DNA from: Sphingosinicella microcystinivorans
GTDB lineage: Bacteria > Pseudomonadota > Alphaproteobacteria > Sphingomonadales > Sphingomonadaceae
DNA: 64,000 bases
Direction: 5' to 3'
NCBI RefSeq assembly: GCF_003634215.1
Contig: NZ_RBWX01000008.1
Location: 496,001-560,000, forward strand
The notes under the pieces: generated by a model
Database searches by the model: none
The model's input: the letters and a program-made list of their open reading frames with translations, nothing else
Told to the model about the DNA's origin: nothing
Translations under genes and position numbers: made by a program
In this document: in pieces, positions 40,393 through 59,050 of the stretch
How the letters are laid out: each line of letters opens with the position of its first letter
Position numbering within the stretch: the stretch's first letter is position 1

Positions 40393-42591
40393 CTATCGGT
40401 TGAGGATGAAATCGGCGGCAAAAGGCGCGCCCCCGCCCACGGTCGCGCTCAGCTGTCGGACCTCGAAATGAACAGCGCCTGGAAGTCCACCGAACGCCGC
40501 CGTCTGCGCGCTCGCGGTCAGGGTCCACATCCCTTCGCCCACTTCATCGTCTACAGAGGTCGCGCCGACACGGCAGCGGACGGCATAGCGCTCGTATTCC
40601 TCGCCAAGCGGCGCATCTACGCCATCGACCCAGCCGAATCCTGTCCGACTCCGCCTGGTCCACGAGAATATGATCGCGCCGTCCGCCAGCACATGCGCCG
40701 CTCCATGCACGGGTGACAGCGGCTGCAATGCACGTCCCGTTACCCGGTGCACGACATGCGGACTGTCCGAAGCACTCGTGTTTGGCGGCACGACGCGCAC
40801 GGCGACATCCGTGCTGATCGCGTCGACGGAAAGATCTATTGGAAACAGCGCGGCCGTTTCGAGCAACACGAAGCGTTCGCCTGCCGCATGCCCGGCCATC
40901 GCCGCCTCGCTCGCTTTCCGGCCACGCAGCAGGCCCGAAAGCCGAAAGCGGCGCGGCGCGGTGGGAACCGCACTGCGAAACTGGATCAGTTCATCCCCGA
41001 CAAGCGCCAAGTTCGCACCTGCCAGCACAGAGAGCGCCGGACGACTTTCAAGCCACATCGTGTCGGATATCAGTTCCACGTCCAGCGCAGAAGTTTCGTC
41101 CCAGCGCGTCGGGTCCGTGGCGGGAAGTGCCGCCAGCGCCATGCCCATCGGCACGCCGCCACTCGCCATGCCGACGCTCGACCAGCTTGCACCGGCATCC
41201 CCGCTCAGCCAGATTTCGCCGCGACGCCAACCGCTCCCCGATCCTGCCGCGGCGATCCAAAGGCGCGGCACGCTCGGCATCTCGCCCGCGATGGGCGGCA
41301 GTTCGAAGGCGTGGAATTGCGTCTCTCCCTGCGGCGCATCGATGGTCGTTTCCGCGCGGCCGCCGTCGGCCGCCGGGTCCAAGCCTACGCCTGCATCCAC
41401 CGGCTCCGCCTCGATGGCGACCGTCATCGTTTCCAAAACCGTCCGGCGAATTTCCCAGCGCCGACCGTCGCGGCCGGAAAGCCGGTCACCAGGCTGCAGC
41501 GCAAGCGCCCGGTAGCCGAGCCGGAAAGCCGCGGTCTCACGCCGTGTCCACAAACGTTGCAGCACACTTTGTGCCGCACGTTTCGCAGCACCGGCTGAAA
41601 GCGCGACCGGCAGCGCGCTATGATCTTCGCGTCCGCGCGCGCCCGGCCGAAATGCGCGCTGCGTCCCCGCCTGATAATCGCGCGCAATGTCGAGGTAGCC
41701 AAAGGTCACCAATGCCGGCGCATCCCCGCTGCGGCGTGCAATCGAATGGCGGCTCTCACCCTCGACCAGCCCGTCGTCGTCGAGAACGATACCGGTCTCG
41801 GCGCTGTCGTCATGAAGCCGTATCCGCTTGCCGCCGAGCGCCCGCACGTCGCCGAGTTCGCCAAGCGATGCGATCCACGTCGAAAGCGGCGCGTTGGTTG
41901 CAGCGGCGAAGCCCGGCAGAGACTCCGAAAGGCCGCCGGTGGAGATTCGCACACCGGCGGCCTCCGCAAGATCGCCGAGGATCGCGCCGACCGTTGGCGG
42001 CGCGGCATCGGATATGACCTCGAATGACAGGTTCGGAATGCGGTTCGCGAAATCGCCGAGCTGCAGGTCTTCAAACACGGCATAAGCAAGGCCGCGATAA
42101 GCGGGCGCATTCGCCCCCCCTTCTGCAGCGGCGATCAGCGGATCAGGCGCCTGGGTCTCGCTGCCCGTATAGATGCGCACGGTCCCTTCCGCCGTCATCT
42201 CGCCGGCTGCACCGCGCAGCAGCTTGCCGTCGGCCCATATGCGTCCGACCCCCACGATCGGCCGCGCCGAAATCGCCACCGCGAAGGATGCGGAATAGCT
42301 GTATGTCGTTGTGCGGCCGCCCGAGCGCTTGCCGCCGCCTGAACGGTGCGCCGTTTCCTTGAGGCCCCGACTCCAGATCACGTTCCCCGCCGCACGGGTT
42401 GTGCCGTAAAGCCGTGGATGCGGCACCCCATAGGCCGAGCTTTGTACGGTGAGATCGTCGAGGCGGGGGCCCGTGCGCCCCTTCGGCGCGAACAGCATCT
42501 GATCGATGGCGTTCCCCGCGACCGCGCCGATGGCAGCGCCGATGGGTCCGCCGACGATTGCGCCGACGGTGGTCAGAACAAGTGTCGCCAT
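40393..42591 (-). CDS. GTA baseplate protein, gp15-like but without the barrel domain
   Basis: The 732-residue protein starts at the ATG complementary to 42589-42591 (MATLVLTTVGAIVGGPIGAA), followed by a glycine-rich hydrophobic stretch near 10-30 and phage tail tip features such as YGTTRAAGNVIWSRGLKETAH and NRIPNLSFEVI. RcGTA gp15 is about 1,300 residues long and carries a sugar-hydrolase-like barrel ahead of this tail-tip part. Here that barrel is missing. The remaining part fits the conserved tail-protein domain. It probably caps the tail and contacts the cell surface. Confidence 0.85.
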   Translation of the reverse strand: MATLVLTTVGAIVGGPIGAAIGAVAGNAIDQMLFAPKGRTGPRLDDLTVQSSAYGVPHPRLYGTTRAAGNVIWSRGLKETAHRSGGGKRSGGRTTTYSYSASFAVAISARPIVGVGRIWADGKLLRGAAGEMTAEGTVRIYTGSETQAPDPLIAAAEGGANAPAYRGLAYAVFEDLQLGDFANRIPNLSFEVISDAAPPTVGAILGDLAEAAGVRISTGGLSESLPGFAAATNAPLSTWIASLGELGDVRALGGKRIRLHDDSAETGIVLDDDGLVEGESRHSIARRSGDAPALVTFGYLDIARDYQAGTQRAFRPGARGREDHSALPVALSAGAAKRAAQSVLQRLWTRRETAAFRLGYRALALQPGDRLSGRDGRRWEIRRTVLETMTVAIEAEPVDAGVGLDPAADGGRAETTIDAPQGETQFHAFELPPIAGEMPSVPRLWIAAAGSGSGWRRGEIWLSGDAGASWSSVGMASGGVPMGMALAALPATDPTRWDETSALDVELISDTMWLESRPALSVLAGANLALVGDELIQFRSAVPTAPRRFRLSGLLRGRKASEAAMAGHAAGERFVLLETAALFPIDLSVDAISTDVAVRVVPPNTSASDSPHVVHRVTGRALQPLSPVHGAAHVLADGAIIFSWTRRSRTGFGWVDGVDAPLGEEYERYAVRCRVGATSVDDEVGEGMWTLTASAQTAAFGGLPGAVHFEVRQLSATVGGGAPFAADFILNR

Positions 42592-42595
42592 GGTC

Positions 42596-43009
42596 TCAAA
42601 TCTCCGGAAAACGCCAGGCGGTGCGCGCCCATTCCGGTGGGAGGGGAGCGTCGACGACACGCCCAAGGCCGAAATGGGCATGAACAAACGTATCGCCGCA
42701 GCAAACGGCGAGATGGCGCTGCGCAGCCGACACCGCGATCAACGCCAGATCGCCCGCGAGCGGTTCGCCCGTTCGCAGCATACATCCGGCCGCCGCCAGC
42801 CCGGCCGCCAACCGATCGCGATTGTCGGCGGCAAGGCAATAGTCCTGCGGCGTACAAAACGAGAGCCCCGCGCCCTTCGCCGCCGCGATGGCGACACCGA
42901 CGCAGTCGAGGGCAAGGCCCGGCACGCGCCCCTGCACGCGGCAGGGCGTGCCCACACAGGCCCGCGCCGCGCGCACGATGTCGGCGTGGCGCGAATGCCT
43001 GTCCGTCAC
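42596..43009 (-). CDS. NlpC/P60 family cell-wall peptidase (GTA gp14-like)
   Basis: The 137-residue protein has the NlpC/P60 catalytic cysteine C36 in LALDCVGVA and the histidine H99 in QRHLAVCCG; GDTFVHAHFGLGRVV completes the core. GTA gp14 is thought to cut peptidoglycan during DNA entry. It overlaps the DUF2163 gene by four bases. The family is short, and this copy has the normal length. Confidence 0.9.
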   Translation of the reverse strand: MTDRHSRHADIVRAARACVGTPCRVQGRVPGLALDCVGVAIAAAKGAGLSFCTPQDYCLAADNRDRLAAGLAAAGCMLRTGEPLAGDLALIAVSAAQRHLAVCCGDTFVHAHFGLGRVVDAPLPPEWARTAWRFPEI

Positions 43010-43839
43010 AGGCTTGGATAGCGGATTACGGAATCGGTGCCGGGCACATGAGGCTCTCCGCGAAAATTGTCCTTGTTCTGAAAGCGGTCCCGGCAGGTCG
43101 AAAAGCGGCGGTCACAGCCCTCGCGCAGCTCCACGAGTTCGCCCGGCGCCAGCCGCGCGGCAACCGCCTCGCGCAGATCAACGGATACGCCATCCGAAGC
43201 GACGATTTCGAAATCCAGCCCCGCGAGCGCGCCGGCGAGCGGCCGAAGCCGTCCATAGGCAAGCGCACTGCTCGGCAGCGCGCAATCGGTCTCGATGCGC
43301 GCCGCGCCCGTCACCGCCGTCACGCACGCGATATGCGTCAGCGGCGCCAGCGCCACGCGGCAGCGCGCATCGCCCAGCCGCGCGCGGCATTCCGGCGTGC
43401 AGAGCGCGATCGGCGTACGATCGAGGTCCGCGTGCGCACTTTTCAGTTCCGCTTCGAAGCGGTCATCGCGGCGCACGATGTCGCCGATCTCGCCACTCGC
43501 CAGCAGTATTGAAGCCGTTGGCGCGCTCCAGTCGACAAGCGATAGCGTCGCACAGGCACGGTCGTAGCGGCCCGTCGCGATATCGTCGGCGCGGATGCGA
43601 CCGCTGCCGAGCGCGCCCGACACCTCCATGCCGCCGCCCTCGATTGAATCGGCGTGGGCGACCGCCGAAGGCACCATGCCGGGCACGGGCGAGCAGGCCA
43701 TGCCGTCCACGACGAGTGGGCGGTCGTGCGACGTGAAACCAAGCGCCGCGCCGTCCGCGCGCTCGATTCGCCAGCAGAAGGCAAGGCTCGTCGTTTCCTC
43801 TTCAAGCGCGGCGGCAAGCGTTTCCGGGATAGCGCGCAT
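43006..43839 (-). CDS. DUF2163 domain-containing protein (GTA gp13 hub)
   Basis: The 277-residue protein has the DUF2163 pattern: LAFCWRIERADGAALGFTSHDR near the start, then repeated acidic loops, the Cys-bearing CTPECRARLGDARCRV, and CDRRFSTCRDRFQNKDNFRGEPHVPG at the end. The cysteine motifs resemble the 4Fe-4S-binding site reported for RcGTA gp13, which forms the tail hub. It sits between the DUF2460 tail protein and gp14, the canonical order. Confidence 0.92.
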   Translation of the reverse strand: MRAIPETLAAALEEETTSLAFCWRIERADGAALGFTSHDRPLVVDGMACSPVPGMVPSAVAHADSIEGGGMEVSGALGSGRIRADDIATGRYDRACATLSLVDWSAPTASILLASGEIGDIVRRDDRFEAELKSAHADLDRTPIALCTPECRARLGDARCRVALAPLTHIACVTAVTGAARIETDCALPSSALAYGRLRPLAGALAGLDFEIVASDGVSVDLREAVAARLAPGELVELREGCDRRFSTCRDRFQNKDNFRGEPHVPGTDSVIRYPSL

Positions 43840-46139
43840 CAGGCCTCGCGCACTTCGATGATGGGAGCAGAGGGCATCTCGCCCGCGCGCCAGCCCTGCA
43901 GAGAGGCTTCGATACTGTCCTCGGCGAAGCGCACGGGCACGTCGAACAGGAAGCCCGCCGTCACCGCCGCGGCAGGCGCGGTATCGAATGTCACCGATCC
44001 CCCTTCGAGCGACCAGCCGTCCGTCAACTCCGTGCCCGCAACCGCCACACGCACGCTGCCGGCATCGGGCCGCGTTATGTGCCGCGTTTCGCCTTCGCCA
44101 TAGCGCTTCACCAACGGAAACACCGTCCGCACGCCGTCACCCGCGCCCAACATCTGATCGAGCGGCGAGGGGGCGCCCGTCATACCGTTCGAGCTGAAAT
44201 CGAAGGGATCGCGAAACCGGAACGCGAACGCCCGCCCGCGCCGCGCGCGGAAGAAGGCGATCAGCGTCGCAAGATCCTCCTCCGAGCGCACGCCCGGCCC
44301 GGCGTCGTAGCGCAGCCGCGCCTGTGCCCAGTCGCTGTTCCTCTGCTCGTATCCCGAAACGCTGGTCACGACCTGCGTCGAAAACAGCGGACCGCCGCTG
44401 GCGCCTTCCGCAAGCGCCAGCGGAAACGCCACGTCATGAAAGCCCAAGGGCGCATCCTCCTCGATCTCGAAAAACGTGAATCCGTCGCGCATAACCTGCG
44501 GAAAGGCCCACACGAAGGTTTCGGCGACCCGGCTCAGCGCATCTTCCGCAGCCTCCGCGATCGGCTGCCAAAGGTGCCCTTCCGCACCGTTCAGCACGAA
44601 GCCCGCGAAATAATGCTGCTCGGCAGACGCATAGCCGAGCGCATCCGAAACCGCCGCCCGCGCCCGCCGCATCCCGCCCGCGTTGCCGTCGGTGACGAAG
44701 TCGTAGTCCTCCAGCTGCAGCACATCGAACGCCGGATACGCCCACGCCGCGGGCATGTTCACCGCCGCGAGCCACGCAGCCTCGGGCCTCAGCACCTGCG
44801 GCGCATAGAACAGCAGCGCCACCTTTATGCCCGGCGCCGCGCCCTTCACTGCATCGCGCAGCGCCAGCGTCGAAGCCCCCAGCTTCCCGCCCAGCCATGC
44901 ATGATACGCCGTCTGCGCCGTGGTCGGTGTTTCGGAAACGTCCGCCATCGCGGGCGGCGCAGCAAGGCCCGTCTCCGCCGTGTAAGCCGCCGTCGCCGCC
45001 GCGTCGTGGAAACAGGGCGTGCGATCCACCCCGAATCCCGTCCACCACCACGGCTCCCCGATCTGGAACCAGGGCGCCCCGAACCCTGCGAACGCCTCGC
45101 CCACACTCCGTAGCCAAACCATCGCATCGTCGTTCGCGGGCGAAAGCAGAGTCGAGGGTGGGTCCCAGCCCGTGAGCGCAGGCGACCCGTTGCCTGCGCG
45201 CTGCTTCCACTCCTCGGGCGCGTGCGCGTCAAACAGTTCGTAGCTCAGCGACAGGACGACCTGATACCCGAGCGCCCCGGCGCGCGCGCAGAAATCCTGG
45301 TGCCAAACCCGGCAGGGCGCGTTCAGCGGATCCCCCTCCGCAACAACGAACCGCACGCCGTCCCAGCCGAGCCGGAAATAATGGCTCATCCCCACATAGT
45401 GGTTGAACCACGCCCGGTAGCCGAGCTTCAGCGCGTTCCCCACCACGCGCTCCGGCGTCAGATTATAACTGTCGTCGTACCCTCCCGCCATGCGCAGGCG
45501 GTGCGGGGGCAGGCAGGCGTCGCCGATCTCCAGCACCGAGGATGGCCCGTCGCAGCGCATGCCCTCGATCCGGACCGTTGCCACGCCAGGCACGGCGAGC
45601 GGCACGTCCTCCCGCGTATATCCGCCCGGCACCACCGAGATGAACATCCGGTCGATATCGCCTGCCCACACCGGGTCCGCCTCGCCCGGGAGCAGGAAGC
45701 CGCCGTCCATCGCATCGAAGTCGAGCGTGATCACCGCATCGTCCGGCTCGCCCTCGGCATAGTTCCACAGCCGCACGTACCAGCTCTTCGGTACGCCCGC
45801 GGCATCGCGCCCCTCGATCGTAAGCGTCGGCCCGTCGAGTTCATGGAGCTTCCGGCAGTCGCCTTCCGATCGCCACCGGAAGGAAAGCTGCGTCCCCCGA
45901 TAGTCCCGCCGCGTCTCATAGGCGATCAGCGGATGGTCCCAGCGGTCGGCGCTTTCCCAGATCAGCCCGACGAGATCGTTCGCGTTATAGAACGCCGCGT
46001 CGATCCGCAGCGCGTCGGACGCCGTCGTCACCACGCTTCCCATCGCGGGCCGCGCGAAATCGACCGTCCAGTAGCGCGCGTCGAAGCGCTTCATCCAATC
46101 CCGCCGTATGCCGTCGCCCGGCTTCGCCAGCCAGTGCAT
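43839..46139 (-). CDS. DUF2460 tail protein fused to an N-terminal barrel-like region (GTA gp12-like)
   Basis: The 766-residue protein ends in a DUF2460 domain (from about 564), with SGYEQRNSDWAQARLRYD and RAFAFRFRDPFDF, the family core of distal tail protein gp12. Ahead of it lies a beta-rich N-terminal region (about 1-220) and a region (about 235-555) that resembles a glycoside-hydrolase-type TIM barrel: AWFNHYVGMSHYFRLGWDG, LSYELFDAHAPEEWKQ, FQIGEPWWWTGFG and FDVLQLEDYDFV. Standard gp12 is about 200 residues. The barrel seems to be the one missing from gp15. Some databases name such fusions non-contractile tail sheath proteins; I am unsure of that label. Confidence 0.85.
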   Translation of the reverse strand: MHWLAKPGDGIRRDWMKRFDARYWTVDFARPAMGSVVTTASDALRIDAAFYNANDLVGLIWESADRWDHPLIAYETRRDYRGTQLSFRWRSEGDCRKLHELDGPTLTIEGRDAAGVPKSWYVRLWNYAEGEPDDAVITLDFDAMDGGFLLPGEADPVWAGDIDRMFISVVPGGYTREDVPLAVPGVATVRIEGMRCDGPSSVLEIGDACLPPHRLRMAGGYDDSYNLTPERVVGNALKLGYRAWFNHYVGMSHYFRLGWDGVRFVVAEGDPLNAPCRVWHQDFCARAGALGYQVVLSLSYELFDAHAPEEWKQRAGNGSPALTGWDPPSTLLSPANDDAMVWLRSVGEAFAGFGAPWFQIGEPWWWTGFGVDRTPCFHDAAATAAYTAETGLAAPPAMADVSETPTTAQTAYHAWLGGKLGASTLALRDAVKGAAPGIKVALLFYAPQVLRPEAAWLAAVNMPAAWAYPAFDVLQLEDYDFVTDGNAGGMRRARAAVSDALGYASAEQHYFAGFVLNGAEGHLWQPIAEAAEDALSRVAETFVWAFPQVMRDGFTFFEIEEDAPLGFHDVAFPLALAEGASGGPLFSTQVVTSVSGYEQRNSDWAQARLRYDAGPGVRSEEDLATLIAFFRARRGRAFAFRFRDPFDFSSNGMTGAPSPLDQMLGAGDGVRTVFPLVKRYGEGETRHITRPDAGSVRVAVAGTELTDGWSLEGGSVTFDTAPAAAVTAGFLFDVPVRFAEDSIEASLQGWRAGEMPSAPIIEVREA

Positions 46140-46702
46140 CAGCGCCCCTCGGCGCGCAGCAGCGCCTGCCGCACCGCGCGCGCCACTTGTCGGCCGCTCT
46201 TTGCCATGAAGGCGGGCGAAGCGTCGGCGGGCGCATTCACCCTCACGTTGATCGTGGCCCCGCCGCGCGCGGCGCCCGTCTCGATGCGTCCGCTGGCGGT
46301 CGGCACGAACACCTCCGGACCCCGCTCGCCAACGAGGTAGGCCTGCCCCGGCGAGACCGGGCCTCCCGTCGCGCGCCCCGGCAAGCCGAAGGCGGTCATC
46401 GCGGCGCTCGCCAGCGTCCCGAAAATACCGCTCGAACCCCCGCCCCCCGCGCCGAAGTTCATCTTCAGCGTCGAGGCTGCGATCTCGTTCATCACCGAAA
46501 GCACGCTGCGCTTCAGGTCCTCGAACCCGAACTTGCCCGTCCTGATGAAGCGATTAAGCGCGCTTTCCATCGCGCTCCCCGCCCGGTCCATGCCCGCCTG
46601 CAGCGGTCCATCCAGTTGCCGCGACATCGTATCGACATCGCGCGCAAAGCCCTGCGTATCCGCGCGCACCTTCAGCACGAGCGTTTCGATTTCATCATCC
46701 AT
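46139..46702 (-). CDS. Short tail tape measure protein (GTA gp11-like)
   Basis: The 187-residue protein (MDDEIETLVLKVRADTQGFARDVDTM) has a helical N-terminus and a Gly-rich middle (NFGAGGGGSSGIFGTLAS). PVSPGQAYLVGERGPEVFVPTASGRI follows, a common tail-tape end. It is far shorter than phage tape measures, as in RcGTA, in line with a short tail. It starts inside the end of the chaperone gene and ends at the first base of the next start. Confidence 0.88.
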   Translation of the reverse strand: MDDEIETLVLKVRADTQGFARDVDTMSRQLDGPLQAGMDRAGSAMESALNRFIRTGKFGFEDLKRSVLSVMNEIAASTLKMNFGAGGGGSSGIFGTLASAAMTAFGLPGRATGGPVSPGQAYLVGERGPEVFVPTASGRIETGAARGGATINVRVNAPADASPAFMAKSGRQVARAVRQALLRAEGR

Positions 46703-46874: not shown

Positions 46875-47173
46875 CGCCCGGCAAGGATTTGCGTCAGCAG
46901 CGTTTTCAGCGCAGGCGTCGCCGCCGCGAGTCCCCCCGCCACAAGCGCCTCGGAGAATGCCTCCCGCTCCGCGCCCTGCGGATCGAGGCAGTGCCAGAAC
47001 AGCCCCGCCATCTCGGCCAGCGAAAGCTGCCCCGCCGCCGCGCGCTCGACGAGCCCGAACAGCGGCCCCAACTCCGCCTCCGCCGCCACCAGCGCCGCAA
47101 AGCTCGGCCGCAACCGCAACCGCTCGTCCGCGATCAGAAGCTCAGCTTCACCGCGCAGGGGGTTCGCAGTCAC
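46871..47173 (-). CDS. GTA-gp10 family protein
   Basis: The 100-residue protein matches the GTA gp10 family: MTANPLRGEAELLIADERLRLRPSFAALVAAEAELGPLFGLVER and a C-terminal helical segment. It is a likely tail assembly factor acting with the small chaperone. It overlaps the tail tube gene by four bases and the chaperone gene by four. Confidence 0.92.
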   Translation of the reverse strand: MTANPLRGEAELLIADERLRLRPSFAALVAAEAELGPLFGLVERAAAGQLSLAEMAGLFWHCLDPQGAEREAFSEALVAGGLAAATPALKTLLTQILAGR

Positions 47174-47580
47174 GCCGTCACCACCGGCCCGGCGCTTTCC
47201 AGCGCGAGCGTGTACGTCCGCTCCCCGCCGAAATCGCCCGCGTAGTCGAGCCGCGTCACCAAAAACGGCCCCTGCATTTTCTCGCCGCTCTCGAAGCTCA
47301 GCTCATACCCCGCCACCGTGCCGCCGAGCGCCAGCGTCTTCAGCTGCGCCTCGGCGGCCGACCCGGTGAACACCCCCGCGCCGGACACGGAAACATGCCG
47401 AACCCCGCCCCCCGAAAGCAGCTCGCGCCATCCCCCCGATCCCTTGTTCGTCACCGCGACCGCCTCGCTCGCGATCGACATCTGCGTCGTGCGCAGCCCC
47501 GCGATCGTCTGGTACGTCGCGGGCGCTCCCCCGTTCGAAAGTTTCAGCAGGAACGCGCTGCCCTTTTCGGCTGCCATCAT
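47170..47580 (-). CDS. Major tail tube protein (GTA gp9-like)
   Basis: The 136-residue protein begins MMAAEKGSAFLLKLSNG and has VAGLRTTQ-like (here IAGLRTTQMSI) and SGGVRHVSVSGAGVFTG segments of the TP901-1-type major tail protein. It should form the hexameric tube of the flexible tail. It is 10 bases after the tail terminator gene. Confidence 0.92.
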   Translation of the reverse strand: MMAAEKGSAFLLKLSNGGAPATYQTIAGLRTTQMSIASEAVAVTNKGSGGWRELLSGGGVRHVSVSGAGVFTGSAAEAQLKTLALGGTVAGYELSFESGEKMQGPFLVTRLDYAGDFGGERTYTLALESAGPVVTA

Positions 47581-48201: not shown

Positions 48202-48518
48202 ACCCTTGCTTCTGCTCTGAGGAGGATGCGATCAGGCCGCAGCGGATCGCGCGTCGCGGCGATCACGGTCAGCGCCTGTCCACGCCACTGCAAGCGGTCC
48301 CCGACCTTTGCCGAAGCCTCCCCGCGCATCACGATCGTGTAGCGCGCAGGCGCCGAGAGCCGTTCGGCCCGCGCACCGATCACAGGCGTCTCGCTCTCCA
48401 CGCTCGCCCACATCGGCGCGCCGAACACGGGATCGCCGGCCGCGCCCGCAGCATCGCCCGCGGTGTGGACCCCGATCGCAACGCGCTCTTTCAGCGCACC
48501 CGCCAGCTCGCCGCTCAT
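48198..48518 (-). CDS. Head-tail adaptor/head closure protein (GTA gp7-like)
   Basis: The 106-residue protein starting MSGELAGALKERVAIG has the head closure pattern with PMWASVESETPVIGARAERLSAPARYTIVMR and RLQWRGQALTVIAATRDP. It joins the connector to the tail. It overlaps the connector gene by four bases. An ATG 10 codons earlier lies inside that gene and is less likely. Confidence 0.88.
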   Translation of the reverse strand: MSGELAGALKERVAIGVHTAGDAAGAAGDPVFGAPMWASVESETPVIGARAERLSAPARYTIVMRGEASAKVGDRLQWRGQALTVIAATRDPLRPDRILLRAEARV

Positions 48519-49006
48519 GCGAGGCGCATCCGCCGCCAGGGCCGCCAAAGCGCCGCAACCGCCGCAGGCGGCCCCGCGTCGCCCGCAGCGTCGCGGTGCC
48601 CATAAAGGTGCGCGGTCAGCCGCACGATGCCCTGCCGCAGCGGCTCGGGCACGCCGTTCCAGTCCCCGGCCAGCCCCGCTTCCACCACGATGCGCGCTGG
48701 CGTACGCCCGGAAACACGCACCCAGCCATCGCCGGAAGCGTCTGTCAGACTGTCGAACGCAGCGGCATCCTCACCAACGAACGCGCCTTCGAAGCTGCGC
48801 ACGGGTGTCGCCGCCAGCCGGTGCCACTCACCGTCAGCCGCAACCGTCTCGCTGCGTTCCTCCGCGATCAGCACTTGCCCCGTGAAGGCCTCGCACAGCG
48901 CTGCAGCGCTCCGCACCAGCCCGGCGAGCAGCGCATCCTCCTCAACTCCATCGATGCGCAGATACGCCTTCACCTCGCCGAGCGAGACGGCAAGCGGCGC
49001 GCTCAT
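48515..49006 (-). CDS. Head-tail connector protein (GTA gp6-like)
   Basis: The 163-residue protein has the gp6 connector pattern MSAPLAVSLGEVKAYLRIDG, DALLAGLVRSAAALCEAFTGQVL, and a long C-terminal helix (PLRQGIVRLTAHLYGHR). It forms the ring under the portal. It overlaps the fibre-adaptor gene by four bases, which shows that the inserted block is translated in one unit with the tail genes. Confidence 0.9.
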   Translation of the reverse strand: MSAPLAVSLGEVKAYLRIDGVEEDALLAGLVRSAAALCEAFTGQVLIAEERSETVAADGEWHRLAATPVRSFEGAFVGEDAAAFDSLTDASGDGWVRVSGRTPARIVVEAGLAGDWNGVPEPLRQGIVRLTAHLYGHRDAAGDAGPPAAVAALWRPWRRMRLA

Positions 49007-49284
49007 CGTTCGTCCACCCGGATGGAAAGCGCGCGTTCCTCGATACGCCCGCTCGTCAGCGTCACCCGATTGGTCACGCGATAGACGTGGCCGGGGATGC
49101 CGCCCTGAAGCGTCGCCGAAGCGCGCCCGGCTTCGCTCGCAGCCCCATCCACGGCAATGCCGCCCGGCTCCTCGGGCGCCACGATCCATACGCTGGCGGC
49201 GATCGTGTCGCCCGCCAGATAGCCCGCCGCCCAGTCGACCGTGTAGTCGATCCGCGCGCCGGGATCCTTCAGATAGAATCCCAT
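49003..49284 (-). CDS. Phage fibre-tail adaptor-like protein
   Basis: The 93-residue protein (MGFYLKDPGARIDYTVDWAA) shows the pattern KDPxxxxDYxxDW, GDTIAASVW, and GGIPGHVYRVTNRVTLTSGR of a small beta-sandwich family linked to phage fibres. It is not part of the RcGTA core. It opens the inserted block beside the M14-like gene, 23 bases away, and may hold it to the particle. Confidence 0.78.
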   Translation of the reverse strand: MGFYLKDPGARIDYTVDWAAGYLAGDTIAASVWIVAPEEPGGIAVDGAASEAGRASATLQGGIPGHVYRVTNRVTLTSGRIEERALSIRVDER

Positions 49285-49307
49285 CGCAAACTCCGTGGTT
49301 GATCTGG

Positions 49308-51659
49308 TCAGGCCGCGCCGACGCCGAGCACGCGGCTGTCCGGCCGCACGCGCAGCACCGCGCCGGACAGGGCGGGCGGGATGAGACCCGTGCTGAGAAC
49401 AGGCCGCGCCGCGCGGTGCGGCATCGATGCGCCCGCGCCCCGCACCAGTCCCGCCGCCGTCAGAGTGGACGCAGCCACATGCTGGCTGTGACGGCAGGAC
49501 GCCGCCGCGATTTGTCCTGCGAGCGACAGCGCCGCTGCGCTGCTCTGCTGCACGTGCGCGGCACCCGCAGGCGCGAGCCACGGCGTCAATGCCGCCGGGC
49601 CGGACTGCATGCTCTGCACCGCCGCCGCCGGACTCAGCGCGGCGCCGAACCAGCCGTCTTGATATGTATCCGCAAGCGCAGGGCCGATCGTGTCGACGCT
49701 AGCGCCGATCTCGCTCAGGAAATCCGCGAAGGCGTAAGACCATTCGAATGTGATGCCGAAGCCGCCCACGGTTCCGGCTCGCGCAAACGCCGTGCTGCTG
49801 CCCGTCGAACTCGAAGAATAATTGTGCAGCGATGTGCCGTAGAGCGTCTCGACATTGGCGATGAACGCGCTTTCCGCGCCGCTCGCACCGTCCTTGTACG
49901 TCCCGAACTGCGCGCCGCTGAACGTATGGCTGTGCCATGCGATCTGGCCGGCGCAATTCAGCAGGCTCGCGGCATTCACGCCCCATTCGGCCACAAGCAG
50001 CGCAACGCTCGCCTCGATGCTGAGGATCGGATCGGCAACGTCGCTGCGGTTGATCGCGTTCGATCCCCAGGCCCGGTTGGGATCGTCGCCGACATCTCCG
50101 GCCTCCGCGACGCCGCGCGCCATGCCGCCGACCATGCCCGCCGTATTGGTGATGAGGAACACGTGCTCGAATGCGCTGCGCAGACTGTCGTGGTCAGCGT
50201 CGTCCACGCTCATCAGCCGTTCGGCGAAGCGCAGCATGGCGCGCAGCCCGCCCCATTCGCCCGCGTGCGTCCAGGTGTGAAACAGCCGCGTCTTCGGTCC
50301 CGAGGCGCTGGCGTCTGTTATGCCGAATGCGAAGGCATATGTGTCACCGACAGCGATTCCGTCCGGGCTCACGAGGTCCGGAAAATCGTAATACGCATAT
50401 TTGTTCGGCGCCGAGGCCGAAACGCCGAGCGCCGCGCACGCCGCCGGACGGCACATGTGCGCGTTCGCGTCCCACGTCGTCAGCCAGGCCTCCAGCTCAG
50501 CGTAGGGCACCGGCGGAATGTTGGCGATCTGGATCACCGCTTCGGCGAAGGCACCCGTCTTCGCAAAGGTCAGCAGCGATCCCGAAACCGATCGGCTGTC
50601 GAACGGCACCCAGGCAGACATGTCGCCGATCGTGGAGCCATATCGCCAGTAAAGCCGGTTGCTCGCGGGCGGTGTCGATTGCCGCCAGTTCGCGAAGTCG
50701 AGCGTGAACGTCGGCGAACGCCCCGCCTCTTTCAGGTCGACGGTCGCGTAAAACCCTTCCCACTTCGATCCGGGGATGTTCGCGTTCATTTCAGGATCGC
50801 CGAACAGCGCGATGGTCGGCGTGGTCGTGCTGCCACCGGTGATGACCGTTGCCCCAACATCGATGTCGCCGCCGCCCGGCGGACGCGACAGCGTCGGCGT
50901 GATATCGGCTACGCCGGGAAGCGGCGACCCCGCCGTGTGGCCCGACCTGGCGCCGGCAGGGGCAAGCGAACCGGCTGCCGCGCCCTGAAGGATCAGGCCC
51001 ACGACGTGGTTCGATCCGTTCGACCAGCTGCCGCTTGCCGGCGTGAACGGATAGCAGATACCCGTCAGCGTTTGCGCCTCGCCCGGAGCATGGTCCGCAA
51101 CGCCCATCGCCCCGCCCGACGCGCCCGATCCGACTGCGGCGGTCAATCGCGCGGCCCCGTGGGAGGGGCTGCCCCACGTGCAGCCCGCCGCGGTCACGAC
51201 CTGAAGATAAACCAGCCGTGCATCGGCGGGCACGTCGATGTCGAACGTTGCGCACGCGGCGCTCGATCCCGGCGCATAGGCGGGCGTGGAAACTGCGCCC
51301 GGGCTGCCGGCGTCATATTCGATTACCGCGATCTGGATGTCGCTGCCCGTCACGCCGTTGTGGCTCACCGAAAGCGGCGCGCTGCCCGTCGCGGCGTTCT
51401 CCAGAACCCACATGTCGGCAACGTCCACCGTGGCCGACGAACCGAGGTCGCCCTTGTTTGCGCGCGTAAAGCTCTGCGCACCGCGCGCAATGCCGGTGAT
51501 GGCAAGCGGCGACGATGCGTTCGCACGCTCGTGGTCGATCACCGCGATCAGCGTGTGACCGCTGCCCGAAACGGCATAGGCGTCCGTGGCGATCGGGCTC
51601 GCGTTCGCCGTCGTGTCGACATGGACAACGGCGGCGTTCACGAATTGGGGAGCGGTCAT
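49308..51659 (-). CDS. Fibre-like protein with an M14-type zinc carboxypeptidase domain
   Basis: The 783-residue protein has no signal peptide. Residues about 30-225 are a beta-sandwich with repeated hydrophobic/polar strands (TLIAVIDHERANASSPLAIT). A Gly/Pro linker follows to about 285. Residues about 286-660 match cytosolic-type M14 carboxypeptidases. A W-rich beta domain (LYWRYG, AWVPFD, PPVPYAELEAWL) leads into HAGEW (H465, E468), DDPNRAW (N528, R529), WHSH (H576) and ITFEWSY (E639). The spacings resemble carboxypeptidase A H69/E72, N144-R145, H196 and E270. A Ser/Ala-rich tail follows to the end. It lies between capsid and connector genes. Likely a particle-borne peptidase; the substrate is unknown. 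Confidence 0.75.
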   Translation of the reverse strand: MTAPQFVNAAVVHVDTTANASPIATDAYAVSGSGHTLIAVIDHERANASSPLAITGIARGAQSFTRANKGDLGSSATVDVADMWVLENAATGSAPLSVSHNGVTGSDIQIAVIEYDAGSPGAVSTPAYAPGSSAACATFDIDVPADARLVYLQVVTAAGCTWGSPSHGAARLTAAVGSGASGGAMGVADHAPGEAQTLTGICYPFTPASGSWSNGSNHVVGLILQGAAAGSLAPAGARSGHTAGSPLPGVADITPTLSRPPGGGDIDVGATVITGGSTTTPTIALFGDPEMNANIPGSKWEGFYATVDLKEAGRSPTFTLDFANWRQSTPPASNRLYWRYGSTIGDMSAWVPFDSRSVSGSLLTFAKTGAFAEAVIQIANIPPVPYAELEAWLTTWDANAHMCRPAACAALGVSASAPNKYAYYDFPDLVSPDGIAVGDTYAFAFGITDASASGPKTRLFHTWTHAGEWGGLRAMLRFAERLMSVDDADHDSLRSAFEHVFLITNTAGMVGGMARGVAEAGDVGDDPNRAWGSNAINRSDVADPILSIEASVALLVAEWGVNAASLLNCAGQIAWHSHTFSGAQFGTYKDGASGAESAFIANVETLYGTSLHNYSSSSTGSSTAFARAGTVGGFGITFEWSYAFADFLSEIGASVDTIGPALADTYQDGWFGAALSPAAAVQSMQSGPAALTPWLAPAGAAHVQQSSAAALSLAGQIAAASCRHSQHVAASTLTAAGLVRGAGASMPHRAARPVLSTGLIPPALSGAVLRVRPDSRVLGVGAA

Positions 51660-51672
51660 GGCCTTGTGCCTC

Positions 51673-52044
51673 TCAGGCCGGATCGCCGATTTCGATATCC
51701 CACCCGCCGAAGCTCACGGTGCTTGCGGCAACCAGCGGCTGCGCGGGGCAGGTCGTCACATAAAGCAGCCGCGATCCGGCGGCATCGAGCAGCGCCACAT
51801 GCGTCGCGGTGCCCGATGCGGTGATGGCGACATCGCTTTTCGCCGCAACGCTGAGGCGCCGCCCGGAGGTGACGCCCTCGCCAATCGTGAAGTCCGCGCT
51901 CGTCATCGCCGCATCGGCAAGTGCGCCGCTGTTTGCGGCGCCGTAGCTCGCGGGTTCGGCGGCGAGTGCCACCATGCGTGTGGCGCCCGTCTTCACGGCG
52001 CCGAGCGCCGCATCGAGCACGTCGTTGTGCACGGCTTTCGCCAT
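51673..52044 (-). CDS. Small phage-type structural protein
   Basis: The 123-residue protein (MAKAVHNDVLDAALGAVK) has the pattern FTIGEGVTSGRRLSVAAKSDV, ASGTATHVALLDAAGSRLLYVTTC and VSFGGWDIEIGDP, seen in many phage genomes next to fibre genes. It probably is a fibre or decoration component. It is 13 bases before the M14-like gene and 74 after the capsid gene. Confidence 0.75.
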   Translation of the reverse strand: MAKAVHNDVLDAALGAVKTGATRMVALAAEPASYGAANSGALADAAMTSADFTIGEGVTSGRRLSVAAKSDVAITASGTATHVALLDAAGSRLLYVTTCPAQPLVAASTVSFGGWDIEIGDPA

Positions 52045-52118: not shown

Positions 52119-53210
52119 CTAGGCCGCGGCGAATTTCAAAAGCTTGATCGCTTCCGAATTGGCGACCGCGCCGCCGATCCGTTTCGTCGCGTAGAAATGC
52201 ACGAACGGCTTGTGCGAATAGGGATCGCGCAGGATGCGCGTCGCCGTGCGTTCGGCGATCACATAACCGGCCGCGAAATTGCCGAACGCGATCGAAAGGC
52301 TGCCCGCGCCGATATCCGGCATCGCCTCGGCCTCCACCACCGGATAGCCGAGCAGCGTCGCCGGCTGCCCCTCAGCGAGACCCGGACGCCACAGGAAATT
52401 CTCGTCGCCGTCCTTCATCTTGCGCACCCGCGCCAGCGTCTTCGAATTCATCACGAACACCGCGCCCTGCCGGTAAACGGGCCGCAGCAGATGCACGAGG
52501 TCGATCAGCGCGTTCTCCGGTTCACTCGCCGTGAAGTTCCCGGAAACGCCCGTCGCCAGATGCTGCAGCGTCCCGAACGCCCGAACCGCATCCCCGGTCG
52601 CGGCGGTCGCATAGCTCAGGAACCCCTTGGGCTGGTTCGTCCCGTTCCCGTTCACGAACGCCGCGCCTTCCACGGCGGCGAACTCGCGGGCGATCTCGTC
52701 CGAAAGCCAGCTTTCCACGTCGAACGCCACATCGTCGAGCATCGCCTGGCTCGCCGCCGGGTTCGCATAAAGCTCTCCCATGGGCGGCGCGATTTCGTTG
52801 AAGTCGGGCGTTTCCGTCTCGGGCCTTGCCGCGATGTCCGAAACCCAGCCCGAAGCGAAGCCGCCGCTCGCCACCAGCTTGCGGTAATTGCTGCTCCCCA
52901 CCTTCACCACGTTCGCGATCGCGCGAATGGGCGAGATGTCCTTCAAGGTCGCGTCGATCTTCTGATCGATTTCCACAGGCACCGCATAGCCGCCGTCGCT
53001 GTCTGCAAGCGACATCGCCTTCACCTCCGGCGCGGCAATCCCCTTGCGCAGATACCCGTCCGCAAACGCCTTCCGCTCCGGCACAGCCTCGTGCCCAAGC
53101 GCCGGCCGCCCAGCCTTCACCAGCTCGGCCGTCAGCGCCGCCACTTCGCCGCGCAGCACATCCACCTGCGCCGCCTCAACCTCACCGTCCGCCTTCACTT
53201 CATAGTCCAT
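52119..53210 (-). CDS. Major capsid protein, HK97 fold (GTA gp5-like)
   Basis: The 363-residue protein has a coiled N-terminal delta region (about 1-60), the usual cut site area near SLADSDGGYAVPVEID, and HK97 segments such as GAAFVNGNGTNQPKGFLSY and PVYRQGAVFVMNSKTLARVRKM. FAAGYVIAERTATRILRDPYS sits near the end. It builds the head. It overlaps the protease gene by 11 bases. Confidence 0.95.
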   Translation of the reverse strand: MDYEVKADGEVEAAQVDVLRGEVAALTAELVKAGRPALGHEAVPERKAFADGYLRKGIAAPEVKAMSLADSDGGYAVPVEIDQKIDATLKDISPIRAIANVVKVGSSNYRKLVASGGFASGWVSDIAARPETETPDFNEIAPPMGELYANPAASQAMLDDVAFDVESWLSDEIAREFAAVEGAAFVNGNGTNQPKGFLSYATAATGDAVRAFGTLQHLATGVSGNFTASEPENALIDLVHLLRPVYRQGAVFVMNSKTLARVRKMKDGDENFLWRPGLAEGQPATLLGYPVVEAEAMPDIGAGSLSIAFGNFAAGYVIAERTATRILRDPYSHKPFVHFYATKRIGGAVANSEAIKLLKFAAA

Positions 53211-53631
53211 GGGATCCTCCTTCTGTGATTGAAAAAACCCGCGCGAGCGGCTGCATGGGAAAGGTCACCAGCGAGACCTCGATCAGCTCCACCGCCAGCA
53301 GTTCGCGAAGCCCCCGCGCCCGGTCGGCCCGCGCGCGCTTCACGCGGTATCCGAACGACAACCCGGAAAGCGCCCCGGCGCGCAGCAAACTCGCCGCCTC
53401 CCGTGCCCCCGCGCTCCCGTCCGCAAGCCGCGCCGAAATCCGAAGCCCGCGCCCGTCCTCCTCGACCCGCTCGACAAGCCCCACCGGCCGCGCCGCATCG
53501 TGCTGCCACAGCAGCGGCACCGCCCCCGCGCCCACAAAAGCGCCCTTCCGCACCACGTCCCGCCCCCGGTCCGGCACATCGAACACAGCCGCATAGCCGG
53601 CGAGGCGCAGCGCGCCTTCCGTTCCCATCAT
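53200..53631 (-). CDS. HK97 family prohead protease (GTA gp4-like)
   Basis: The 143-residue protein from MMGTEGALRLAGYAAVFD has the herpes/HK97 protease core: LLWQHDAARPVG (catalytic His), ALSGLSFGYRV (catalytic Ser), and LLAVELIEVSLVTFPMQPLA (third residue region). It trims the capsid N-terminus. The start is at 53631, or 53628 for the second Met. Confidence 0.92.
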   Translation of the reverse strand: MMGTEGALRLAGYAAVFDVPDRGRDVVRKGAFVGAGAVPLLWQHDAARPVGLVERVEEDGRGLRISARLADGSAGAREAASLLRAGALSGLSFGYRVKRARADRARGLRELLAVELIEVSLVTFPMQPLARVFSITEGGSHGL

Positions 53632-53648
53632 CCGCAATGTCCTCGCTG

Positions 53649-53960
53649 TTATTCGGCGAACACGCCCTTGAGGCCCACGGTCACCGCCAGCCCCATCACC
53701 AGCCCCGCGAGCGTCAAGCGCACCAGCCAGCCGACAAGCGCCGCCCGCGCGCTTTTCTTCGCCTCGCGCCACGCGCCGAGCAGCGCGCGCAGTTCACCCA
53801 CGTCATGCGCCGCCTTCGCGTCGGTCAGCCCCACGCGCGCCAGTGCCCGCGCCGCGCCCACCTCGCTCGCCTCTTCCACGAGCGCGCGCAGCGTCACCAG
53901 GTCCGCGCCCTTCCCCGCCGCCTGCGCGATAAGGCCCGTCAGCATCGCGGCTTCATTCAC
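53649..53960 (-). CDS. DUF6127-like small membrane protein (GTA g3.5 position)
   Basis: The 103-residue protein has a helical N-terminal part (MLTGLIAQAAGKGADLVTLRALVEEASEVGAARALARVGL) and a C-terminal membrane helix (LTLAGLVMGLAVTVGLKGVFAE). It lies between portal and protease, the place of the g3.5 gene. I think it is the DUF6127 family. It overlaps the portal gene by four bases. Function unknown. Confidence 0.78.
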   Translation of the reverse strand: MNEAAMLTGLIAQAAGKGADLVTLRALVEEASEVGAARALARVGLTDAKAAHDVGELRALLGAWREAKKSARAALVGWLVRLTLAGLVMGLAVTVGLKGVFAE

Positions 53961-55090
53961 GCGAAGTCCTCCGCATCGATCCCGAGCAGCCGCCGCTTCT
54001 CTTCACCTGAAAGGAAATCCGCCGCGCTCACCTGCGCCCACAAAATCTCGCGGTCGTGCGACAGCGCCGGAATCTCGTCCTTGTCGATCGCGACGCTCGC
54101 GTCCGCCCACCAGTGCGAAAGCCACCCCGAAAGCGCCTCCACGATCCGCTGGGCGAGCGGCAGCACCGTCAGCCGCCACAGCGCTCGATTGGCTTCCGAA
54201 TAGTTCGCATACGTATTGTCGCCCGGCAGCCCCAGCAGCATCGGCGGCACCCCGAAGGCGAGCGCGATGTCGCGCGCGGCGGCGGCGTGCATTCCGGCGA
54301 AATCCATGTCGGCGGGCGTCATCGAGAGCGCCTGCCATTTCAGCCCGCCTTCCAGCAGCATCGGTCGCCCCGCGTTCCCAGCCCCCGCGAAGCTCGCCTC
54401 CATCTCGGCGCGCAGCCGCGCGAACTGCGCCGGAGACAGCGCGCCCTCGCCCTCGAACACCAGCGCGCCGGAGGGCCGCGCCGCATTGCCGAGCAGCGCG
54501 CGGTTCCACGCCGCCGCCGCATTGTGCGTCGCCACCGCCCCCGCCGCCGCCGCCAGGCAGCCGAGCCCATAATGATCGTCGGTCGGGTTCAGCATCCGGA
54601 TGTGCAGCACGCCGGCACCATCACCCGATCCGCAGCCATGCGCCGGAAGCCGCACTGCCGTCTCTCCGGCGCGGTAGAGATACGCCGCCGGCCACCCGCG
54701 CGCGTCGCCTTCCACCGTCACCCGGTCCGGCCGCAGCGCGTGCAGTTCCGCAGGCCGCCCGCCCGCGCCGATCGCCGCGTCCACATAGGCGTTGCCGTGC
54801 AGCAGAAGATGCACCGCCAGCGTTTCCAGAAACCCCGCCCGCGTCTCGCGCGGATTGGGCTGCGCGATCAGCCCCGCGAGCGCCCCGCCCGAAACTTTGA
54901 GCGGCGCCGATCCCGCACTCTCCGCAACCAGCCGGATTGCCCGGCTCGCGACAGGATTGCGCGTCAAAGCCTCGCGCACCCGCGCCGCATAAGACGCAGG
55001 CACATCGCCCGCGTCCCAGCCCCCGCCATAGCCCAGCACATGACGCGGCAAGGCCGGACGCCCGCTCTTGCGGCCGAACCAGTTCAACAT
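53957..55090 (-). CDS. Phage portal protein (GTA gp3-like)
   Basis: The 377-residue protein (MLNWFGRKSGRPALP) shows portal features of the HK97 type: NPVASRAIRLVAESAGSAPL, HGNAYVDAAIGAGGRPAELHALRPDRVTVE, and GVPPMLLGLPGDNTYANYSEANRALWR. It forms the dodecameric gate at a head vertex. GGAGATC sits ahead of the ATG at 55090. An upstream repeat separates it from the cupin gene, so the core cluster restarts here. Confidence 0.95.
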   Translation of the reverse strand: MLNWFGRKSGRPALPRHVLGYGGGWDAGDVPASYAARVREALTRNPVASRAIRLVAESAGSAPLKVSGGALAGLIAQPNPRETRAGFLETLAVHLLLHGNAYVDAAIGAGGRPAELHALRPDRVTVEGDARGWPAAYLYRAGETAVRLPAHGCGSGDGAGVLHIRMLNPTDDHYGLGCLAAAAGAVATHNAAAAWNRALLGNAARPSGALVFEGEGALSPAQFARLRAEMEASFAGAGNAGRPMLLEGGLKWQALSMTPADMDFAGMHAAAARDIALAFGVPPMLLGLPGDNTYANYSEANRALWRLTVLPLAQRIVEALSGWLSHWWADASVAIDKDEIPALSHDREILWAQVSAADFLSGEEKRRLLGIDAEDFA

Positions 55091-55116
55091 CAGCGATCTC
55101 CAAAAAAGAAGAAAAT

Positions 55117-55154
55117 CCCCCTCGCCCCGTTGGGGAGAGGGATGGGGAGAGGGG
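55117..55154. repeat. Palindrome-like intergenic repeat ahead of the portal gene
   Basis: CCCCTCGCCCCGTTGGGGAGAGGGATGGGGAGAG-like sequence with CCCC and GGGG arms occurs just before the portal gene. It resembles common bacterial intergenic repeats and marks the portal side of the inserted island. Confidence 0.6.
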
Positions 55155-55202
55155 ACAATCAAAAAACCGATCTACGCCCCCTTCAGGAGCGGCGCAGAAC
55201 CC

Positions 55203-57724: not shown

Positions 57725-59050
57725 TCAAACCACCCGCACCCCCGGCCGCGCACTCTTCCCCATAAGCGCCCACACCGCCCAGACCAGCGCATCCGCCCGG
57801 TCCGGCGAGCGTCCCGGCCCTTCGTAGCCGCCCCCGGCGATCAGCCCGCACAGCTCGTCCTCCAGCGCCGGAAATGCGCCCGCATGATGCACGCGCCCGG
57901 CTTCGTATTGCGCCGCGACCGGCTCGGCGCGGATCGCCTTGCCGCGTGTCGCGCGCACCGATTTCACGGGCAGCGCCTCGTCCACGGCGGCGAGCACGCG
58001 CGCGACCATGTCGCCGCCGTTGTTTACCTCCGCGATCACGCGGTCCGCGCCGTGCCGCGCGGCAGCGTCTGAAACCGCGCGTGCCCAGCCTTCGGGGGAC
58101 AGGCCTTCGACGCTCGCATCTTCGATCACCACGATCGTGCCATCCGCGCGCAGCCCCGCCGCGACGATCCCGCACACCGATCCCGCGCCGTGCCCGGCGG
58201 GCGGATCGACACCAATCACCACGCGCGCGAAGCCCTCATCGTGCGCCCCGGTCACCGGCACCCGGCATCGCTCGATCAGCGCGCGCGACCAGAGCGCGCC
58301 CTCCACCTCCTCGATCATCTCGCCGTCCAGTTCCTGCCGCCCCAGTCGCGTGCCGCCGTAAGCCTCCGTCACCGCCGCCAGAAAGGCGGGGGGCAGGTTT
58401 GCCGCATTCTCCGCCGTGCGCCCGCGCGTCACGATGAGGGCGTGTCCCGCCATCGCCTCTTCAAGCAGGCGGCGCACCAGCGGCACGGGGCGCGGCGTCG
58501 TCGTCAGCACCGCGCGCGGCGCGCTTCCCAACCGTAGCCCCATGCGCAGGTTCATCCACACGTCGAGGCCGCGTGGCCATTTCGCGATCTCGTCTCCCCA
58601 GGCGTGGCTATGCTGCGCGCCGCGCAGCGCATCCGGATCGTCCGCCGAATAGAGAAAGCCCTGCGCGCCCGTCGGCCACGAAAGTCGCCGCAGCGAAGGC
58701 TCGAATTCGGGGCGCCAATCCGCGCGCACGCGAAGCAGGCCGGATTCGCCTTCCACCATCACGGCGCGCGCTTCATGCAGCGTCGTACCCACAATGGCGA
58801 TGCGCGCGCCGCCGTTTCGCGCCGCGCGCTGCACCCATTCGGCGCCCGTGCGCGTCTTGCCGAAGCCGCGCCCCGCCATCACCAGCCAGGTGTGCCAGTC
58901 GCCCGGCGGCACGACCTGCGAAGCCCGCGCGCGCGAATACCAGCTGCCGACAAGCACGTTTTGCTTTTTAACGGCGATCCCCTCCATTGCCTCGGAGAAC
59001 TCCGCCGGCGTCATCGCCTCCAGCCGGGCTTTCAGGGTCAAGGCTGTCAC
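57725..59050 (-). CDS. Terminase large subunit (GTA gp2-like)
   Basis: The 441-residue packaging motor has an ATPase domain with Walker A GRGFGKT (60-66) and acidic pair D153/E154 in HAWGDEIAKW. The nuclease domain has D282 in VVIGVDPPAG, AEVNNGGD and DRADALVWA. It drives headful packaging of bacterial DNA in GTAs. It overlaps the small subunit gene by four bases. Confidence 0.96.
   Translation of the reverse strand: MTALTLKARLEAMTPAEFSEAMEGIAVKKQNVLVGSWYSRARASQVVPPGDWHTWLVMAGRGFGKTRTGAEWVQRAARNGGARIAIVGTTLHEARAVMVEGESGLLRVRADWRPEFEPSLRRLSWPTGAQGFLYSADDPDALRGAQHSHAWGDEIAKWPRGLDVWMNLRMGLRLGSAPRAVLTTTPRPVPLVRRLLEEAMAGHALIVTRGRTAENAANLPPAFLAAVTEAYGGTRLGRQELDGEMIEEVEGALWSRALIERCRVPVTGAHDEGFARVVIGVDPPAGHGAGSVCGIVAAGLRADGTIVVIEDASVEGLSPEGWARAVSDAAARHGADRVIAEVNNGGDMVARVLAAVDEALPVKSVRATRGKAIRAEPVAAQYEAGRVHHAGAFPALEDELCGLIAGGGYEGPGRSPDRADALVWAVWALMGKSARPGVRVV

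Follow-up and report, generated by a model that had tools for sequence, protein, structure and literature searches.

We analysed a 64,000-nucleotide stretch of the Sphingosinicella microcystinivorans genome (contig NZ_RBWX01000008.1, positions 496,001 to 560,000; hereafter the window) and identified an M14-type carboxypeptidase domain in a spike or fibre protein encoded within a gene cluster like that of RcGTA, the gene transfer agent (GTA) of Rhodobacter capsulatus. The gene runs on the minus strand from 51659 to 49308, has no internal stop and encodes 783 amino acids. Profile comparisons support a domain of the cytosolic carboxypeptidase (CCP, M14D) type rather than a generic M14 one. We propose, with middling confidence, that this gene specifies the enzyme-bearing fibre of a spike cassette, and that its M14/CCP domain would act as a hydrolase on a peptide or amide bond of some surface layer. 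The homology, the residue conservation, the cassette structure and the exchange of fibres are demonstrated below; zinc binding, catalysis, the place on the particle and the substrate we infer.

The carboxypeptidase-like domain

With limits set by eye, the fibre protein consists of an N-terminal part (about residues 1-230), a linker, a W-rich region (285-440), the M14/CCP-like domain (441-674; 49638..50339, minus strand) and an Ala-rich C-terminus. The domain is recognised by a profile hidden Markov model (HMM) that contains no row from the window family and combines four CCP enzymes with three related fibres (L012, L098 and L099). This leave-out HMM matches the three family members at E 6.8e-7, 5.7e-7 and 5.8e-9 (29.0-35.8 bits), compared with a best score of 10.2 bits for shuffled domains (639 listed of 1000 shuffles). 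Among 563 open reading frames (ORFs) of the window the target is the sole match (E 9.9e-8), the next best having E 3. The significant part of the match within the domain is limited to about residues 456-540. A preliminary description made from the letters alone had placed an M14 domain in a fibre-like protein at 49308-51659; these results bear out the domain and the coordinates, with the gene lying on the minus strand.

Single-sequence searches of Pfam, NCBIfam, PHROG and the PDB with the fibre protein returned no M14 match, and in the Pfam scan PF00246 did not match at E 1. The related fibre L098, located in a prophage, reaches PF00246 at E 8.4e-4 (19.5 bits, just under the cut-off of 21.6). 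A profile of the three window-family members (residues 285-674; search space of 20000 for all its E-values, including that of L100 below) finds L098 at E 1.2e-8, L099 at E 5.8e-4 and P0004, the fibre of viral contig L012, at E 6.3e-3. From the other side, a profile of 27 cellular CCPs, taken from 30 loci of which a motif filter removed three, finds L099 (E 2.4e-7) and L098 (E 8.9e-4) and misses P0004 (E 3.9) and the window protein (E 95, 1.7 bits). Direct profile-profile alignment of the window family with CCPs by hhalign, which uses none of the intermediate fibres, gave P 7.9e-4 against 0.096 and 0.41 for reversed controls, at a probability of 25%.

The type of M14 domain is indicated by a fibre profile (A5) that combines the window family with L012, L098 and L099. 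Six PDB sequences match it with E-values no higher than 1 (best 1.8e-6), and every one is an M14 carboxypeptidase. Two of them bear the name CCP-like protein 5; the others are bacterial CCPs described in PMC3940198 (4b6z, 3k2k, 3l2n and 4a39, the last identical in sequence with 4a37). As all six are CCP-type, the peptidoglycan enzymes MpaA and Csd4, which had been offered as models and were not compared directly, give way as the closest ones. L098 alone gives seven PDB matches, five of them M14, including the top four. When A5 was run against 385 genomes of the class, with at most four candidates scored per genome, it produced 33 matches in 31 genomes. Two were query members, and 29 of the 31 others were checked, the two without a locus being left out; all 29 are CCP relatives.

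The W-rich region had been likened to the N-terminal domain of cytosolic M14 enzymes. This likeness was not borne out, as the CCP N-terminal domain PF18027 has no match there at E 1 in the Pfam scan; the W-rich part of the window family does align with the W-rich part of fibres L098 and L099. The window's own genome has, in addition, a gene for an ordinary cellular CCP that contains PF18027 (G000:C1:14869-15201).

The residues expected of an M14 active site are largely present. In BcCCP the zinc ligands are reported as His171, Glu174 and His268, the substrate carboxylate is held by Arg226, Asn235 and Arg236, with Glu344 corresponding to the base Glu270 (PMC3940198). The fibre protein carries H465-A-G-E468, P527-N528-R529, H576 and E639. 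In three alignments the HAGE motif (50256..50267; this and the following sites on the minus strand) is in register, with H465 and E468 as putative zinc ligands at the places of BcCCP His171 and Glu174, as is N528-R529 (50073..50078) with Asn144-Arg145 of carboxypeptidase A (CPA) and Asn235-Arg236 of BcCCP. R515 (50115..50117), the likely counterpart of CPA Arg127 and BcCCP Arg226, is in register in two alignments with a gap; in the gapless hhalign alignment it stands opposite a neighbouring Arg. The candidate third zinc ligand is H576 in AWHSH (49932..49934), and the candidate general base, corresponding to CPA Glu270 and BcCCP Glu344, is E639 in TFEWSY (49743..49745), which is invariant in the family and lies where there is no significant alignment. 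H465, E468, R515, N528, R529, H576, H578 and E639 are identical in all three distinct family members, while residue 570 varies (A/T). The M14 order of residues put forward earlier holds for the presence of HAGE, PNR, H576 and E639 and for the register of H465, E468, N528 and R529; the aligners do not put H576 in the column of the third ligand.

The three distinct members are the window protein, L003 (identical to L005) and L004 (identical to L006 and L001); the latter two share 71-75% identity with the first. Among 397 genomes drawn from the family Sphingomonadaceae, three encode the protein, all of one genus: the window's own, Sphingosinicella soli and a Sphingosinicella metagenome-assembled genome. 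The fibre gene is under purifying selection, since nonsynonymous divergence (dN) is 0.18-0.22 and synonymous divergence (dS) 0.67-0.86 across residues 441-674. IMG/VR lists contig L001 as viral, and its fibre protein is identical to that of the Sphingosinicella soli GTA-like cluster. A 1065-residue plus-strand ORF across the fibre gene (48627-51824) is taken as an antisense frame in high-GC DNA.

Searches for further relatives among mobile elements were mostly empty. A tblastn search with the fibre protein found nothing in phages or plasmids at E 1, nor did blastn of the first 710 bases of its gene in phages. The M14 regions of L098 and L099 likewise had no tblastn match in phages. Viral contigs scanned with L098 and L099 contained no relative; scanned with A5, they yielded the known family member only.

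The base-fibre-adaptor cassette

The fibre gene is the middle member of a three-gene cassette inserted between capsid and connector. It starts 13 bases past the gene of a small 'base' protein of 123 amino acids (51673..52044, minus strand), which serves as the marker of the cassette and has relatives in other genomes of the order and beside a phage tailspike gene. It ends 23 bases before a gene with an ATG start for a protein of 93 amino acids (49003..49284, minus strand). The preliminary description had called the latter a fibre adaptor, and it is indeed a Gp77-type fibre-tail adaptor (PF23148, E 1.2e-28, 99.9 bits, cut-off 27; PDB 8jou_D, E 5.2e-4).

Of 296 genomes sampled from the order, 36 encode relatives of the base protein. 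In a further scan, the seven genomes whose best matches lay at E 0.005 to 0.1 were left aside. We fetched 35 of the 39 places other than the window's own, leaving out four. At 28 of these 35 loci the base gene lies inside a GTA-like cluster, with a capsid gene in the stretch at 26 and a Gp77-type gene without capsid at two; the remaining seven have neither. The adaptor is present at 27 of the 28 GTA-like loci, and at the other the contig ends soon past the base gene. For comparison, 12 genomes were probed and four with a capsid match yielded clusters that lack the base gene (a weaker second copy in G018 was left out). In all four the genes lead on from capsid to connector, and there is no Gp77-type gene.

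The fibre gene beside the base varies, as does its position, before or after the base gene. An SGNH/SASA esterase domain (PF03629) is found in the fibre of locus L094 (3851-6007, E 4.7e-16) and in that of viral contig L017 (1491-4406, E 3.3e-8), a second M14 fibre stands beside the base in viral contig L012, and the fibre of L083 has a lectin-like domain. The other slot fibres that we scanned have weak or no Pfam matches. Because fibres next to the same base protein carry the esterase domain, the slot is, judging from these domain assignments, one that exchanges enzymes.

Links between fibre and adaptor are suggested in two ways. The C-terminus of the L017 fibre is assigned a Gp77 domain by Pfam (PF23148, E 3.9e-8), which would support a contact between fibre and adaptor, with the proviso that a separate Gp77 profile scores this fibre at E 6.2 and does not confirm the assignment. 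In addition, the window fibre ends in an RVLGV tail (49320..49334, minus strand), and the pattern RxLx[I/V] occurs in the last 25 residues of 15 of 25 slot fibres, against an expectation of 0.86 from shuffled tails (maximum 5 over 1000 shuffles). These fibres were chosen by hand, one per locus in GTA context, loci without a fibre ORF of at least about 350 amino acids being left out; they are otherwise widely different, and some carriers of the pattern look closely related. The tail may be a docking peptide.

Outside GTA-like clusters the base gene precedes an annotated tailspike gene in one phage, and in a Microcystis phage every neighbouring gene carries the annotation hypothetical. The M14 fibre gene of prophage L098 likewise comes after the capsid gene, lying between the major head protein and a head closure gene; a fused Gp77 domain considered in this fibre was rejected by the Gp77 profile test. 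A second protein of M14-like type, at L099 (5551-7683, genome G878), also bears a LamG domain. Three ORFs adjoining it match phrog_16728, one of which is also QueC-like, and no head genes were found among the four proteins scanned there.

The surrounding genes, all on the minus strand, were scanned by domain profiles. Those of the head are a large terminase (57725..59050; PF03237, E 2.3e-25), a portal protein (53957..55162; PF04860, E 1.1e-77), a prohead protease (53200..53772; PF04586, E 3.6e-26) and, upstream of the fibre gene, an HK97-type major capsid protein (52119..53210; PF05065, E 2.5e-87). On the other side lies a head-tail connector, listed at 48515..49189 (TIGR02215, E 5.2e-21), whose true start is probably downstream of the listed one because the listed ORF overlaps the Gp77 gene. 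It is followed by a tail tube protein (47170..47580; PF06199, E 4.5e-38), a short tape-measure-like protein (46139..46702; PF09718, E 2.3e-5) and an Rcc01695-family distal tail protein (43839..46139; TIGR02217, E 6e-63; also PF09343) that has non-contractile tail sheath domains (PF23844, PF23845) fused to it and is presumably larger than its RcGTA counterpart. Next come a baseplate hub (43006..43839; PF09931, E 8.2e-50), an NlpC/P60-like protein at the g14 position of RcGTA (42596..43009; a weak match to TIGR02219 at E 1.7e-4, 22 bits, cut-off 81.9, and no Pfam match) and an Rcc01698-like tail tip protein (40393..42687; PF23666, E 1.6e-27).

Because HK97-type head genes and Rcc01695- and Rcc01698-type tail genes follow one another in order, the locus is identified by these gene families as an RcGTA-like head-tail cluster, and the fibre gene lies between capsid and connector as the preliminary description had it. 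The two flanking genes scanned encode an OmpA-type protein and an acyl-CoA dehydrogenase. No capsid homologue was found in three of the six genus genomes examined (G002, G003 and G005, the last just 78% complete), and for this reason the cluster itself seems to be missing from them.

Proposed mechanism and alternative explanations

We propose that the base protein and the Gp77-type adaptor probably fix the fibre to the outside of the particle. The site may be the vertices of the head, where RcGTA has its spikes, or the neck, to which the adaptor points. H465 and E468, with a third histidine that is most likely H576, would probably bind zinc, R515, N528 and R529 would hold the substrate carboxylate, and E639 would act as the base. 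Most likely the enzyme works beyond the outer membrane of the recipient, where it would hydrolyse a peptide or amide bond of a surface layer; the substrate could be a surface protein, a peptidic matrix or an amide-substituted polysaccharide. As with enzymatic tailspikes, such hydrolysis would let the particle hold on to the layer and travel through it. We favour an enzyme-tipped outer spike because the position of the gene, the base, the adaptor and the exchange with esterase fibres all fit one.

Several results weigh against this proposal. The link between the window family and CCPs rests on intermediate fibres, which came from the window-family or P0004 profiles or from the neighbourhood, so that the leave-out HMM is not fully independent of the family that it detects. 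The window-family profile reaches a cellular CCP (L100) only at E 0.72 and on its own finds no PDB chain at E 10, and the 1.7 bits given to the window protein by the CCP-only profile are close to the best of 500 shuffles (1.2 bits). The CCP motif NPDG reads NTAG in the window protein. AlphaFold models are of low confidence (mean pLDDT, the predicted local distance difference test score, of 32.3 for the full protein and 38.1 for residues 285-674), and a Foldseek search with the low-confidence model of residues 285-674 had no match at E 0.001, the 50 entries shown including no M14 structure. The gene is also rare, with the three occurrences among 397 genomes given above. Finally, six MAFFT alignments place A/T570, not the invariant H576, in the column of the DxHG histidine, and the distance from N528 (48 residues to H576 and 42 to A570, against 33, 37, 33 and 33 in P0004, L098, L099 and L100) does not favour H576 as the third ligand.

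These last two observations are also the strength of a serious rival, in which the M14 fold has lost its third zinc ligand at A/T570, is catalytically dead and merely recognises a surface peptide or sugar. That the profile match stops soon past N528-R529 points the same way. However, the eight putative functional residues, H576 and H578 among them, are invariant whereas 570 is variable. Measured to the next aligned Phe, moreover, H576 (9 residues) fits two of three relatives better than A570 (15 residues), the distances being 10, 11 and 14 in L098, L099 and P0004, and the third-ligand motif DxH[G/N] is retained by the related fibres of L012, L098 and L099. Mainly because H576 and H578 are invariant, we prefer a live metal site to a dead one, as far as residue patterns can tell, with H576 most likely its third ligand; a dead fold is somewhat less likely. 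A different proposal is that the locus is a decaying prophage and the fibre its host-range protein, with no part in a working GTA. The viral listing of a relative's cluster in IMG/VR, the prophage location of L098 and the missing capsid homologue in half of the genus genomes examined would all suit it. However, the gene families match those of RcGTA (TIGR02217, PF23666, PF09931) in an arrangement seen again elsewhere in the order, the two flanking genes that were scanned encode OmpA-type and acyl-CoA dehydrogenase proteins, and the fibre gene is kept by purifying selection; on these grounds a decaying prophage is improbable.

A live enzyme could also act elsewhere. M14 members that cut peptidoglycan stem peptides, MpaA and Csd4, are known, and the preliminary description had suggested the trimming of cell-wall peptides during attachment or entry. 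However, the PDB sequences matched are CCP-type and the neighbouring genes encode components of surface fibres. What a spike would encounter on the outer side of the outer membrane is surface protein, capsule or matrix rather than peptidoglycan, and an NlpC/P60-like gene, though a weak match, is already present in the cluster; for these reasons stem-peptide trimming is the least probable of the readings considered, and we set the suggestion aside in favour of an outer spike acting on the surface layer.

Significance and comparison with known systems

GTAs spread host genes among relatives, and to our knowledge the choice of recipient cells has been worked out mainly in Rhodobacter. A slot with a base, an adaptor and a swappable, sometimes enzymatic fibre would offer a concrete handle on recipient choice in sphingomonads. 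We tentatively generalise that RcGTA-like particles of sphingomonads carry exchangeable enzyme-tipped spikes encoded in one slot, the enzyme of Sphingosinicella being a CCP-type carboxypeptidase. If this is true, a gene transfer particle made by the cell edits a peptide or amide bond on its kin, and exchange of the spike sets which strains can receive DNA. A CCP-type peptidase displayed by the particle would also give the CCP family a task outside the cell; the substrates of its bacterial members were described as unknown in 2014 (PMC3940198).

Enzymatic spikes on GTAs and phages, the carboxypeptidase region in the T5 virion and the depolymerase PghP are already known; what would be added here is a putative M14 spike in a GTA. 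In searches of the open-licence literature, no title or beginning of an abstract concerned an M14 protein in a GTA.

The bacterial CCPs (M14D; BcCCP 4b6z, SdCCP 3l2n, BmCCP 3k2k and PaCCP 4a37-4a39), the best PDB matches of the fibre profile A5, share with the window fibre the register of HxGE, Arg and Asn-Arg. In contrast to them, the fibre has no detected NPDG or PF18027, and its third His is displaced or lost. They are also free cytosolic enzymes, whereas here the domain is the middle part of a putative structural gene.

The head spike of RcGTA similarly combines a small base (Rcc01079) with a longer fibre (Rcc01080) on a GTA (PMC7296036). The base profile A3 had no match at E 1 among PDB chains, in a comparison by sequence only and with the presence of the Rcc01079 chain in the set unconfirmed. 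The RcGTA head spike mediates attachment to the capsule and, in the passages of PMC7296036 consulted, has no named peptidase domain; its genes lie outside the main cluster (PMC13420450). The g14 protein of RcGTA, at whose position the NlpC/P60-like gene stands, degrades peptidoglycan (PMC7296036). Another RcGTA protein, the tailspike TspA, is an enzyme that breaks down biofilm and increases gene transfer (PMC13420450), and the principle of enzyme spikes on GTAs is therefore already known. TspA is like the proposed spike in being a GTA-borne enzyme that aids transfer, but it is a beta-helix enzyme directed at biofilm, sits at the baseplate and is not of the M14 type (PMC13420450).

Phages provide further parallels. 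The phage poly-gamma-glutamic acid hydrolase PghP and its homologue PghL are zinc enzymes with a carboxypeptidase-like fold that clear a surface polymer (PMC6506827). However, PghP has a different His41/Glu46 spacing (HxxxxE), and His, Thr and Ser replace Arg127, Asn144 and Arg145 (PMC6506827). Compared by these described residues, without an alignment, the window fibre has HxxE and the Arg/Asn-Arg set and is not of the PghP type. The tape measure protein of phage T5 has a virion-borne zinc carboxypeptidase-type region, but this is in the tape measure rather than a surface spike (cited in PMC11445458). The gene adjoining the fibre is related to the fibre-tail adaptor gp77 of phage GP4 (PF23148; a relative of PDB 8jou_D), which differs in belonging to a podophage tail, according to the Pfam description.

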